Of a DNA stretch of 60,000 bases, positions 18,234 to 51,010 are shown piece after piece. Source of the DNA: Bolinopsis microptera (taxonomy: Eukaryota > Ctenophora > Tentaculata > Lobata > Bolinopsidae). The translations under genes and the position numbers were made by a program. The stretch covers positions 13,166,340-13,226,339 of the forward strand of contig NC_087081.1 in assembly GCF_026151205.1 (NCBI RefSeq), in the 5' to 3' direction. The stretch's first letter is position 1. The number at the start of each line of letters is the position of its first letter. The notes under the pieces were generated by a model that ran no database searches, was not told where the DNA came from, and worked only from the letters and a program-made list of their open reading frames with translations.

Positions 18234-18822
18234 TGTTTTCCTAAAAATTTGTTTTCCTATAATGTTTCCTCTAAAATTGGTTTCTCTATATTGCAGTATT
18301 TCGAGATGTGACTGTTATAGGTTTTTAAAGGTTGTGCTAGTCTTGAAATACCACAAAATAAAAATGATATGCCTTTGTTCATTTAGCTGTAAAAGTAATC
18401 TCTGCGAAAATCGTGTAATCCGTGTAACTGAAATTTGCGTCACTGCTGTTTTCATTTTGATTTGTGTTTAAAATAATTTTTGATTTTTGAGTCAATATTA
18501 CATACTATTATCATGTTCTATTAATATGGCACTGGTTGGGATGAAAAAACTTTCGCAAGATCATTGATCAATGTTCAATCAGTTTTTCACATTCCATTAA
18601 TGATAATAATAATAATAAAATTTGGTAGCTTAAACACAAACTCTAAGCCCAGTGGATAAACCACAAAACTTATGCTCTATTGTGTGAAACAAAGATACTA
18701 GATCAAGATAACTATCAAGGAGTGTATGCATAGGACATAAAAAGTTTTGGAACGAAGATGACATGCTTGTGAAGCGAGCTAACAGTCTAATTGCTAATAA
18801 GTTCAAAAAGATCATGACATTA

Positions 18823-19684
18823 TAGTTAGGGACAATTAACATTAATACAGGACCATCTGGGAAAAAATTTGCGACAAGCTGATTTTTACAGGAATGTGTT
18901 GTCCATAGTGTCAGGAACCACCCCAAAGAGTTTCCAATCTGGATCTGTTGAGCAAAAAAAGTTACAGCCAATTTTCTTCAGGCGCGTATGTCAGCCTGAG
19001 GACCGCACTTGAAAAACTCGTAACTATCGTAATAAAGACCCCCAGGAGCACCATAGGGGGTGCAAAATGACCGCAATAGTGACATTATGTGGGGCGAATC
19101 AGTGTTTTAGGGTCGTCAGATCTTTACTTATTGAGATAATTTCATTTTTATAGGCTAACCTCTCAAAAATTTACTAAAATTTTGAAATTTTACTTAAATT
19201 TGGAAATTTAGCAAAATTGTTGTACAATTAAAGTTATCTAGTTATCAATATTCAAATTCTAAAATTTACTTTCAATTGTCAATTGATCCTTATATTAGTA
19301 TAGTAAATAATATACATATCACATCAAATTCTGTAAAAAAAGGTCCTGATTATTAGCATGGTGTCTTTGACTGGCAACTATTAGGTCACTTCTGGCTATC
19401 CCATTTCCTCAGAGTTGTTTGATTCTCCTGAATAGTCGTGTCTTTCGGGTGCATTAGTGCAACTTAATCCATGACATTGGCCACATGCAGGTAGACATTT
19501 AAAGCCATACTTCCGGCAGGAACACCTTAAGTACTAACAAGGGTTCTCAACCTTCACCCAGCAATTGCAGCAAATGAGGTTGAGCATCCCTGCCGGGGCA
19601 ATCGCAGCTTTAGTCGGGATTGGCCGGTAGTATCCTTCAGAACTCATCTCCCATCCATAATGTAGTGGATTTAGACATGCAGTG
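18823..19684 (+). repeat. left long inverted arm
   Basis: It pairs with 21862-22722 with high identity; the first about 20 bp after TAGTTAGGGA differ by indels. It contains the coding sequence for the C-terminal end of the nuclease-like protein. Confidence 0.85.
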
Positions 19685-21862
19685 TCGAGTGTCACCCAGT
19701 TATGAAGATATGATCTTAATATATGCTCAGTTGCAGAGGATGTAGACGGTGGTAGCCTTGATGGGTTGAGTTTTTTCTTTGCTATCATTCTACTGTAGCT
19801 GAGAAATCTGAGAGTTTCAAGTGCCTTGGTTTTATTTCCTTAGATATGTTGAAACAAGGAGAGGCCAGCTTCAATTACTTCATTTGTTGAAAATCTCACA
19901 GAGAGTAATGATGCTAAATGACCCTCCTCATGAAAAGAAACTGCCTTTTTCAATATCTTCACCTTACCAAAGCCATGTATACTGCTGACCGTGTCACATC
20001 CTGAGAAACTGTGAACAAACAGTAATATGCGTTTTATGTTGGCATCAGGAGCATTTACTATTTTACTGATCGAGTGTGAGCCGTTTCTGGTCGTCATCAC
20101 AATTTCATTGTGATTCTCAGTAAAATGATGAATAAGGAGGCAAAGTATATCATTATCCTCTGCTTTTACCTCAACATCTTCGTAGAAGGACAAGTTTAAA
20201 GCTTTACTAGCTACCATGGTATCAGCATCATCAGTAGCTACATGTACTTCAATTCCATGTTCTGTAAAAACGTTCGACAGAAGCTTTATAAGCTCATGCT
20301 TGTTCTTTGAGTTGCTGAACAGTTTTTTCATCGGAACTGTGCACACAGTAGTACTTTTAATAGCTATATCAGAGCAGTATGACTTGATTCTTCGCTGATG
20401 CTCATGATCTTTTGTTGATCGGGCATAGCCATCAAACACAACAATCACTTTCCGCTGTTCGGATTTCGGAACTAGCTTAAGGTATTCATTAGCTATGTCG
20501 CCGTATGTTTCAAAGCCTGTGAACGAGGTAACTTGATAGAGTAGCCATCCACCATCAATTATTAATGGGGAGGATGGGTTGCTAAATGTCACAGTACAAT
20601 CAACAACATTCTTGAGGTATTGCCCAAGGGCTGCCTTGTTAGCCTTTCTCATCATCTGCTCATTGTTAAAAAGACTCATCGGCATTGCTGTGAGCTCATA
20701 TTGCAAGCTTTCCTCCAGTGTAGACTCTCGTTCAGATGCGAAGACAAGCCGATTTAAAATTGTCAATGAGTCTATAACAATGTCTTTTTCGTTCACCCTC
20801 ACTGTCCTCTTTAGAAGGGTCAAGTTTCCGACTTTGCCTTTAACTCGAAACTTTTCGATAAAGCTTTTGCCATCCAGCTCTTTCTGGAGGGCAGTACCAA
20901 CTGAAATGCAATCTTCTGGGTTGACATTATCCTTCTCTTTCTGTGATATGAGACCCGTTGAGTACGATAGCATTTTAGTCTTGTCTTCAGATTCGTCGAA
21001 ATCAGCTGTATCTTTAAACCAACACAACAGCTTGGTAAACACTGCAATATTTTTCTGTACAGAAGATTTGCTAAGATCTGAGTGATTAGCACTAGAGGCT
21101 TTTGTTGTTGTTCTTTTATTAGATAAGTCTGCAATAGCTTCATCGACACTCTCGTTTCTCAACGCCATTTGATTGAGGGTTGCAGTCCATAACTTATGGG
21201 CACATTCATGAGTTCGCATTCTCCCTCCAGAAAAACCCCCTGATGACTTTGCAGCCTTCATTAGTCGCTGTTCGATCGACAGGTCTGTCCACACACCAGA
21301 CCACTCGTGTTCATTATATCGAACTGTGTGCAGACCTACGACCTTGAACGTTTTGGCTAGTGCCCCATACTGAATCTCAAGTACGGTAATCTGCTCGAGA
21401 TACAGCCGTAGAGCTTTGGAGTACTGACCTCGACCTGCTGCTGCAAAGATAGGCAACATCTTAGCCACAATTGGAAGATGTAGATCGAAGTCATGTAACC
21501 GTTCTGCTCTTATAAAATCTTTTATTAAGCAAATGAAACCATGATAAGTTGTCCAAAGAGCAGCTGTTCGACGATGACATCTCGAACTTCTTTTTTATAC
21601 GCTCTGATAACTCTTGTACGACTCTGGTCTTGTGGTTTACACCGAGTTTTTCATTGCCACACTTGGCAATATAGCTAGCCATATCTTCAAGATCCTCCTC
21701 TGCTATTTTGTCCTCAAATAAATAGCAGCAGAGAGCACAATCTTTTCAATCAAACTTAAAAAGTGGGCCCTCAGTGCTTTGTAATAGGATCCACCGTCCA
21801 TTATGTGAGTTACATCCCCAGGGTAGACTAATCTCATAAGGTCTTCCAGTCCGGAGTCTGCC
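19396..21862 (-). pseudogene. FEN1/XPG-like (PIN-fold) nuclease with C-terminal Cys-rich domain, broken
   Basis: The main frame (19840-21468, 542 codons) has motifs in the order of FEN1/XPG-family nucleases: LIIDGG (residues 302-307), VVFDGYARSTKD (343-354), HVATDDADTMVA (409-420), EDNDIL (437-442) and SGCDTVSSIHGFGKVKILKK (489-508), the last resembling the FEN1 helix-two-turn-helix GCDY..I.GIG. The frame stays open beyond a TAA (19840-19842) into RFLSYSRMIAKKKLNPSRLP, then beyond a TAG (19534-19536) into RCSCRKYGFKCLPACGQCHG, a CXC-like zinc cluster, ending at 19396. Upstream, 21491-21682 is in another frame and 21728-21862 back in the first (ADSGLEDLMRLVYPGD), so at least two frameshifts and two stops disable it. 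The N-terminus is cut where the right arm begins. Many unannotated invertebrate proteins share this layout. Likely substrate is branched or nicked DNA, by family only. Confidence 0.7.
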
Positions 21863-22722
21863 ACTGCAAGTCTAAATCCACTACATTATGGATGGGAGAT
21901 GAGTTCTGAAGGATACTACCGGCCAATCCCGACTAAAGCTGCGATTGCCCCGGCAGGGATGCTCAACCTCATTTGCTGCAATTGCTGGGTGAAGGTTGAG
22001 AACCCTTGTTAGTACTTAAGGTGTTCCTGCCGGAAGTATGGCTTTAAATGTCTACCTGCATGTGGCCAATGTCATGGATTAAGTTGCACTAATGCACCCG
22101 AAAGACAGGACGATTCAGGAGAATCAAACAACTCTGAGGAAATGGGATAGCCAGAAGTGACCTAATAGTTGCCAATCAAAGACACCATGGTAATAATTCA
22201 GGACCTTTTTTTACAGAATTTGATGTGATATGTATATTATTTACTATACTAATATAAGGATCAATTGACAATTGAAAGTAAATTTTAGAATTTGAATATT
22301 GATAACTAGATAACTTTAATTGTACAACAATTTTTATTATTTGCTAAATTTCCAAATTTAAGTAAAATTTCAAAATTTTAGTAAATTTTTGAGAGGTTAG
22401 CCTATAAAAATGAAATTATCTCAATAAGTAAAGATCTGACGACCCTAAAACACTGATTCGCCCCACATAATGTCACTATTGTGGTCATTTTGCACCCCCT
22501 ATGGTGCTCCTGGGGGTCTTTATTACGATAGTTACGAGTTTTTCAAGTGCGGTCCTCAGGCTGACATACGCGCCTGAAGAAAATTGGCTGTAACTTTTTT
22601 TGCTCAACAGATCCAGATTGGAAACTCTTTGGGGTGGTTCCTGACACTATGGACAACACATTCCTGTAAAAATCAGCTTGTCGCAAATTTTTTCCCAGAC
22701 ATTTTGCATTATTCCCTAACTA
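21862..22722 (-). repeat. right long inverted arm
   Basis: Reverse-complement copy of 18823-19684. It repeats the 3' end of the nuclease gene, including the same TAG stop, so the stop predates or was homogenised with the arm duplication. Confidence 0.85.
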
Positions 22723-22777
22723 TTAGGTTGCATCCTAAACAGTTTAAGCAAATTACATAAAGTTATTATATTGTCAA

Positions 22778-24648
22778 TTAATCGCTCATGCCATAACTTT
22801 TCTTAAACAGGTGAGTTTTTAATAATGTTTTGAACAGATCAACATCGGAACAAGTCTTAATTTCAATTGGTAGTTGGTTCCAGATTTTCGGAGCAACAGT
22901 CTGAAACGCTCTTGGGTGTGATCTTGTAGATCCGACGGGTAGGTGTAAGGAGGAAGTTTTTCTGCTACTCGAACTAACAAATGTTACTAGATCACACAGA
23001 TATGCAGGAGCAACACCATTGACTGCTTTGAAAATCAGTAAGCATAACTTAAACTCAATCCTCTCCTTCACCTTGAGCCAATGAAGGGATTTGAGCTTCT
23101 CCTGATCCTCGACTGAGTCTCTCTTCTTTAATCCAAAAACCAGACGGCATGCTCGGTTCTGAATGTTCTGCAGCTGCGTAATTGAGGCTTGACTACAACC
23201 ATAGTAAAGTGCATTGCAGTAGTCAAGCGATGAGATTACAATTGCTTGAGTCAGTGTTCCCATCTGTTTGGTTGTGAGGAATGTTTTCATCTTAGCAAGG
23301 TCTCTTAGTTTCAGAAAACACGATGTTTTAAGTTGCTTGATTTGCTCACCAAAGTTTAGTTGAGAGTCAAGACGAAATCCGAGGTTCTTTGCAACAGGTG
23401 ACAGCCTGATACACGTCTCAGAGTTAACAAACACGCCCCCTATAGACAGCTGCTGGAGAACAAGCGGTGTCCCAAAGACAAGAATCTCAGTTTTTCCTGC
23501 ATTGAGCTGTAGATAATGTTTTTTCATCCAGTCATTAATTTCTTGGAAACATTTGGGAACATCGTTGATAAGGACTGTGGGCTCCTCGTTTGGCTTGAAA
23601 CTTTTATACAGCTGATGATCGTCGGCGTAACCCTGGATGGAGAAGTTCAAATCATGTGCTGCTGAGTACAAAGAGCGAATGTAGATCTTGAACAGGACTG
23701 GACCCAGCACAGAGCCCTGTGGGACTCCAAACTTAAGGCCAGAGGGGGGGTAAAATTGGTTTTTCCAGTTTTCACATATTTGATCAGAGCTGCTGGAGAC
23801 AAACAAGAAGAAAAAAACCAGACCGAAATCTGACCTTGCGTTTTTAAGATATCGCGCGCCAAATATTGAGGTTTACTTGTAATTACATGTAAAACTTTAA
23901 CTTAAACTGTAAAAAGTTAAAAGTCCCTTAGTTGAGAATACTGGCCGAACCCAGAAGCTGAAACTTGGCACAGTTGTTCCTTGGGCTGTCACCCACAATT
24001 CTATTGTACAAAATTTTGATATTTGCCTCTGTTCTCGAAATATGAGGTTAACTTTACCCCAAATTCGACACTTTTCGAAAAATTGTCGAATTTGGGGTAA
24101 AGTTAACCTCATATTTCGAGAACAGAGGCAAATATCAAAATTTTGTACAATAGAATTGTGGGTGACAGCCCAAGGAACAACTGTGCCAAGTTTCAGCTTC
24201 TGGGTGTGGCCAGTATTCTCAACTAAGGGACTTTTAACTTTTTACAGTTTAAGTTAAAGTTTTACATGTAATAACATGTAAACCTCAATATTTGGCGCGC
24301 GATATCTTAAAAACGCAAGGTCAGATTTCGGTCTGGTTTTTTTCTTCTTGTTTGTCTCCAGCAGCTCTGATCAAATATGTGAAAACTGGAAAAACCAATT
24401 TTACCCCCCCCTCTGGCCTTAATCACTATCTCATAAGATTCCTCATTTCCAACTTTAATCGTTTGACATCTACCTGTGAGGAAGCTGCTGAACCATTTCC
24501 AAGCTGTCCCTGTTATTCCCAACTCATTTCTGAGGATGTTCAGTAGTTTGCAGTAGTTTGCAGTGGTCAACTGTATCAAAAGCTGCGCTGAGATCTAGGA
24601 GAAGAACAACAGTTGCCTTGCTTTCTGTAGATGCAATGAGTAGATCGA
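22778..24648 (-). pseudogene. LINE reverse transcriptase, 5'-truncated and split
   Basis: Downstream part (22778-23736): FGVPQGSVLGPVLF, then the catalytic YADD (residues 60-63 of the frame starting 23806), LNAGKTEILVFGTP, and a C-terminal block with LQNIQNRACRLVFGL, WLKVKERIEFKLCLLIFK and PKIWNQLP. These are RT palm motifs and the C-terminal domain of CR1/L2/jockey LINEs. Upstream part (24419-24648): LLLDLSAAFDTVDH, then a 10-bp tandem duplication (CAGTAGTTTG at about 24541) that shifts frame, then LNILRNELGITG and NEESYEIVIK. The frame VIK/FGVPQG is cut by the fold-back element; about 24 residues at the start of the frame from 23806 come from that element. The endonuclease and ORF1 are missing. 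Confidence 0.85.
23737..24418. mobile_element. fold-back MITE with TTAA target duplication
   Basis: Arms 23737-24070 and 24084-24418 are near-perfect inverted repeats of about 334 bp with a 13-nt centre. Both ends are GGCCAGAGGGGGG and both abut TTAA (23733-23736, 24419-24422). Removing the element and one TTAA closes the RT frame exactly. TTAA points to the piggyBac or Kolobok groups. There is no transposase. Confidence 0.85.
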
Positions 24649-50744: not shown

Positions 50745-51010
50745 AATATAATAACTTTATGTTATTTGCTTAAACTGTTTAGGATGCAACCTAATGTCAT
50801 GATCTTTTTGAACTTATTAGCAATTAGACTGTTAGCTCGCTTCACAAGCATGTCATCTTCGTTCCAAAACTTTTTATGTCCTATGCATACACTCCTTGAT
50901 AGTTATCTTGATCTAGTATCTTTGTTTCACACAATAGAGCATAAGTTTTGTGGTTTATCCACTGGGCTTAGAGTTTGTGTTTAAGCTACCAAATTTTATT
51001 ATTATTATAA
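50745..51010 (+). mobile_element. 3' end of the same LINE family (copy B)
   Basis: About 265 bp match the minus-strand LINE 3' UTR on both sides of the 18823-22722 insertion, and both end in an ATT-rich tail. This copy lacks that insertion and reads AACCTAATGTCATGATC across the site. A longer open frame here is UTR, not protein. Confidence 0.9.

Follow-up and report, generated by a model that had tools for sequence, protein, structure and literature searches.

The nuclease of AcademX transposons is of the XPG type, and piggyBac and Kolobok transposons target TTAA. According to the excerpts available of the literature cited here and below, AcademX elements make target duplications of 3 or 4 bp and encode a nuclease, AcademH elements make duplications of 9 or 10 bp and encode a helicase (PMC10045372), and profiles of Academ-type DDE catalytic domains exist (PMC10294476). 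Transib and RAG-like transposons produce 5-bp duplications and have ends starting with CAC; the spacers of RAG signals are 12 and 23, the ends of ProtoRAG have 27 and 31, and a long one pairs with a short one (PMC8289069). Here, we compare with these systems an element of the ctenophore Bolinopsis microptera that is most likely a non-autonomous, rearranged copy of an AcademX-type DNA transposon.

The element lies in a window of 60,000 nucleotides (contig NC_087081.1), whose positions are used below unless another sequence is named. It is 3900 bp long (18823-22722) and flanked at both edges by the 3-bp sequence TTA (18820-18822 and 22723-22725), so that its left tip reads TTA followed by TAGTTAGGGA and its right tip TCCCTAACTA followed by TTA. 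The left terminal 10 bp (18823-18832, plus strand) are the same in most copies, and the right terminal 10 bp lie at 22713-22722 (minus strand). A left arm (18856-19684, plus strand) and a right arm (21862-22699, minus strand) enclose a unique centre (19685-21861). When element positions 34-862 are aligned with positions 24-861 of the reverse complement, the arms are identical in 823 of 838 columns (98%). The inverted repeat is imperfect at the tip, where a long spacer of 23 bp on the left (18833-18855, plus strand) and a short spacer of 13 different bp on the right (22700-22712, minus strand) separate the terminal 10 bp from the arm. The first-pass annotation of this DNA had placed the borders at 18823 and 22722 with these ends and TTA on both sides, which is correct, and independent copies have the same ends; the long inverted arms it described are real as well, the one correction being the differing spacers before the tips. 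It had also seen an empty site near 50790, which we could confirm: the flanking repeat recurs at 51008-50745 (minus strand), where it continues across the insertion point with a single TTA (50794-50792; TAA on the plus strand, 50792-50794), one side matching the flank over 217 bp at 100% and the opposite side over 50 bp at 98%. A LINE-like repeat adjoins or contains the element, whose right edge is directly followed by a 364-codon frame (22778-23872, minus strand) that looks reverse-transcriptase-like by eye.

Tip searches of the same genome, in which 40 candidates each were scored of 217 and 73, so that the copy numbers are lower bounds, gave 36 further places from 37 stretches (two of which are halves of one element), or 37 places with the window. 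Further copies with duplications, which the first-pass annotation had named as the check on its reading, were thus found: both ends are visible at 29 of the 37 places (at the other eight, L038-L045, one end lies within the examined stretch), and an exact 3-bp duplication flanks 25 of these 29, against about 0.019 expected per copy. It is absent from L012, L024, L025 and L035. Because independent copies share their ends and are duplicated far beyond this expectation, the pattern is more than chance, and the window element is a real DNA transposon copy with a 3-bp duplication. The 25 duplications comprise 17 different triplets, and insertion therefore proceeds with a 3-bp stagger and requires little of the target sequence apart from its being rich in A+T; this rules out TTA-specific insertion, and the TTA/TWA target proposed earlier has to be dropped. 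Some copies at different contigs or places have the same flank (L011 and L035; L042 and L044; L108, L109 and L110), and therefore probably spread as part of a host repeat, without inserting separately. Of the first pair, L035 clearly shows the greater divergence.

The longer relative that the first-pass annotation had proposed to look for also exists. L028, a copy of 7694 bp with a GTT duplication, contains an open frame of 1342 codons that is preceded by coding-like exons, and the window copy lacks part of the gene that is open over these 1342 codons. What the window retains is a 584-codon stop-to-stop frame (19840-21594, minus strand). It had been read as a nuclease gene carried instead of a transposase; the frame stands, and the missing transposase is explained by the deletion, because L028 has this frame as a part of its 1342-codon one. 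The C-terminal part of the longer frame contains acidic motifs and a GCD..S..GF.K element that by eye are FEN1/XPG-like, recognisable in the 584-codon frame too, and conserved between this family (family 1) and a second one (family 2, below). Read by these motifs, the protein is a putative FEN1/XPG-type nuclease. Pfam, PDB and a profile comparison with the host's own XPG/FEN1 exons do not support the nuclease assignment: hhalign gave 0.1%, and the score of a small mini-profile was reached by 114 of 2000 shuffles. The 584-codon frame has no significant family match in Pfam or PDB, the longer proteins have no usable match in PHROGs, NCBIfam or Pfam, and the six genome matches to Pfam XPG_I all lie away from the transposon places. 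Eight stretches of viral contigs matched a pattern, none of them encoding a relative, and a structure prediction for the 584-codon frame from the single sequence without relatives reached a pLDDT of 33, too low to interpret.

Among the described groups, AcademX fits best, as the first-pass annotation had anticipated in calling the element a possible derivative of an Academ-type transposon. A 3-bp duplication was found in 25 of 29 family 1 and 26 of 27 family 2 copies, and the element resembles AcademX, for which the excerpt reports duplications of 3 or 4 bp, both in this and in its large protein with nuclease-like motifs (PMC10045372). A separate superfamily outside Academ, making 3-bp duplications by coincidence, would accord with the lack of any Pfam, NCBIfam, PHROGs or PDB match that identifies the protein; we regard it as unlikely, since AcademX is described as combining the two features seen here, a 3-bp duplication and a set of nuclease-like motifs (PMC10045372, as excerpted), and since these motifs are conserved between the two families. 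Other candidates fit less well. AcademH disagrees with the 3-bp duplication, which is not of 9 or 10 bp, and with the lack of a helicase match. The mixed triplets do not agree with the TTAA target of piggyBac and Kolobok, which also separates the present elements from piggyBac-type transposons with asymmetric ends. Transib and RAG-like elements differ in having 5 bp and CAC (PMC8289069), against the 3-bp duplication and the TAGTTAGGG ends here.

We then mapped the 29 two-ended copies on L028. In eight the order is the ordinary one and the arms measure about 370 bp; the other 21 have extended arms. In these, the left tip is followed by the reverse complement of the right interior, which extends down to a point X and is there connected with the part of the right end that begins at a point Y, or the whole arrangement is mirrored. 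The left arm of the window copy is thus an ordinary arm plus an extension copied from the right interior, and its junction (L028 positions 4658 and 6840; window 21861-21862, with a 2-bp overlap) is common to L010 and L016. This is one of at least four arm extensions. Junction 4920/6575 occurs exactly in L017, L025, L027, L030 and L031 and similarly in L013, L023 and L036; junction 5079/5775 occurs exactly in L015, L018, L019, L020+L021, L022, L024 and L037; L034 has 4164/7056, and L014 and L033 are different again. The exact classes hence comprise three, five and seven copies, with overlaps of 0-2 bp at the joints, and the 16 junction sequences compared agree within a class except for scattered substitutions. 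Three copies of the 5079/5775 class have the centre in one orientation and four in the other, as would be expected were the interior able to invert by recombination between the arms.

The 861-bp arms of the window copy are a secondary rearrangement. The first-pass annotation had implied native long inverted repeats as a trait of the family, and the 21 of 29 copies with extended arms speak for that view, but eight copies have arms of about 370 bp, the extension includes duplicated coding sequence and varies between junction classes, and arms of about 370-423 bp are present both in the copy whose frame is longest and in two copies of family 2; native long arms are accordingly highly improbable. 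Aberrant repair would be the simplest route to the long arms: after a break in the element, an end resected to the left arm would invade the homologous right arm and copy inward from it before being sealed by end joining, and the rearranged copy would later have been moved in trans and multiplied; what is observed of this are the shared junctions. Galileo, of the P superfamily, offers a precedent in its variable-length arms that grow by recruiting internal sequence, although it is bounded by 7-bp sequences and not by 3 bp as here (PMC3573991, from an excerpt). Homogenisation of the arms as a general rule is weak: among 28 copies (L036, whose left tip is disrupted, was left out), a copy's own other arm is strictly nearest for both arms in six, with median divergences of 0.016 within and 0.030 between copies.

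The tips of family 1 are asymmetric. The terminal 10 bp and the arm, which starts TCTG, lie 23 bp apart on one side of the element and 13 bp apart on the opposite side, exactly so in 21 of 29 copies by the strict motif and in 24 of 29 when counted to TCTG. Among the remaining five, L033 has 23/12, L012 has 23/12 by hand with a changed inner motif, and L035 and L036 have an altered long tip. The fifth, L037 (G000:C5:3833270-3837251), stands alone in family 1 in that both its tips are short-type, one of them lengthened to 19 bp (19/13), and has a TTA duplication; it is a natural test case for a pairing rule. A long-type and a short-type tip thus occur together in 28 of the 29 copies.

Family 2, from the same genome, has a protein about 60% identical to that of family 1 and starts with TAGTTAGGGC. 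Its tip searches, in which the best 40 of 149 and the best 40 of 144 candidates were scored, gave 26 pairs, all of a long and a short tip; with L047 added, 27 of 27 have spacers of exactly 23 and 13 bp, and 26 of 27 are flanked by a 3-bp duplication (17 triplets). Of the 28 ends left unpaired, one belongs to L047, and for the other 27, four partners were found in the expected slices and five in genome pattern searches, all of the opposite type. The total is therefore 36 of 36 paired long with short, 18 ends without a partner standing outside this count; the ends were picked by similarity to two tip queries, and equal pairs would have appeared in the same lists. A 200-bp family 2 miniature (L101, positions 81-280; G000:C7:12017160-12017359) has 23/13 tips and an ACA duplication, and would bound the sequence needed in cis. 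The 40 long tips listed as best matches all share the same 63 bp (100% identity), suggesting that family 2 expanded in a recent burst.

We also searched the genome for the terminal 10 bp followed by 9-29 bp and TCTGKGA, and obtained 196 matches, against 0 for the reversed control (92 with the gap fixed at 13 bp). Among the 100 listed of the 196, the gap is 13 bp in 47 and 23 bp in another 47, the other six measuring 12, 12, 19, 21, 24 and 27 bp; the list includes diverged tips whose sequence places them in neither family and whose gap is nonetheless 13 or 23. The 100 listed ends form 36 pairs, which overlap the family 1 and family 2 counts: 33 are 13/23, one is 13/24 (L107, duplication ACG), one is 13/19 (L037) and one is 21/23 (G000:C6:14542572-14543121, 550 bp), the last a possible exception to long/short pairing. 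None of these 36 pairs is 13/13 or 23/23. Two short tips are also present in L106, which resembles a rearranged copy, because it has no duplication and its inverted repeat extends into the flank. The short tips of three more diverged places are also 13 bp, L042 and L044 among them, which are not independent, as they have the same flank. Tips with other spacer sequences at 13 or 23 bp (G000:C1:13762890, C1:23184416, C9:3630574, C5:7692517, C7:11472062 and similar) probably represent further families of the same kind.

Comparison of families 1 and 2 shows 8 of 23 identical bases in the long spacer and 4 of 13 in the short one, close to what chance would give, against 46 of 60 in the arm next to them; ACAGGAATGTGTTGTCC is identical in the six ends aligned. 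Length is therefore kept where sequence is not, which suggests, from the comparison of tips, that the spacing is functional. The two fixed lengths differ by one turn of DNA, and whatever moves the element may have to pair a long with a short end; the constant 23/13 pair likewise suggests that transposition joins one of each in an asymmetric complex. Against this, L037 (still with its duplication) and the 21/23 pair are exceptions, and because the two families' arms differ by few gaps, the persistence of two short lengths carries only moderate weight.

Common descent accounts for much of the uniformity seen within families. The same transposon might have 23/13 tips without function if copies simply inherit both parental ends and recombination between arms seldom extends into the terminal 33 bp; this is a real possibility, although we lean away from it. 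It agrees with spacer sequences that are nearly uniform within each family, with L037, whose two short-type tips carry a duplication, and with the few gaps between the families' arms. It fits less well that spacer sequences have turned over between the families with the lengths staying at 23 and 13, that the more diverged listed tips are mostly 13 or 23 too, and that flipped and extended interiors gave no equal pairs among the 36 from listed ends. The functional reading in its general form, that AcademX-type transposons follow a 13/23 rule by which the transposase joins only a long and a short end, a one-turn asymmetry with an evolutionary origin separate from that of the RAG 12/23 rule, we hold tentatively, as something close to an even call.

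Unequal ends have parallels elsewhere. RAG 12/23 signals and ProtoRAG 27/31 ends resemble the present tips in combining a terminal motif, a spacer of two lengths and an inner motif, as far as the excerpt describes them, and differ in their termini and in a 5-bp rather than 3-bp duplication, no RAG-like protein having been found here, so the comparison would be one of working principle (PMC8289069). The same kind of comparison applies to piggyBac-type ends, whose left and right differ in the spacing of transposase-binding motifs (PMC11707139, excerpt). The fixed 23/13 asymmetry belongs to the present elements, and the literature examined, in excerpts, has no mention of it for AcademX, nor of unequal spacers in Academ generally; we therefore regard the tips as provisionally new.

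The explanation that we consider probable is a non-autonomous, rearranged AcademX-type cut-and-paste copy, with arms produced by repair copying and with asymmetric 23/13 end pairing. A transposase from longer copies would recognise the ends by the 10-bp terminus, the 23- or 13-bp spacer and the shared arm, and would excise the element and insert it with a 3-bp stagger, the duplications and the empty site being what is observed and the enzyme putative. The rearranged copies show, with exact junctions, how ordinary arms can become long inverted arms. The 23/13 tips are the point worth following: if they are functional, a transposon without evident relation to RAG uses a device of antibody-gene assembly and would provide an independent system for asking why unequal spacers are used, and if the 13/23 rule is true, evolution would have arrived more than once at unequal spacers as a means of ensuring that the right ends are paired.
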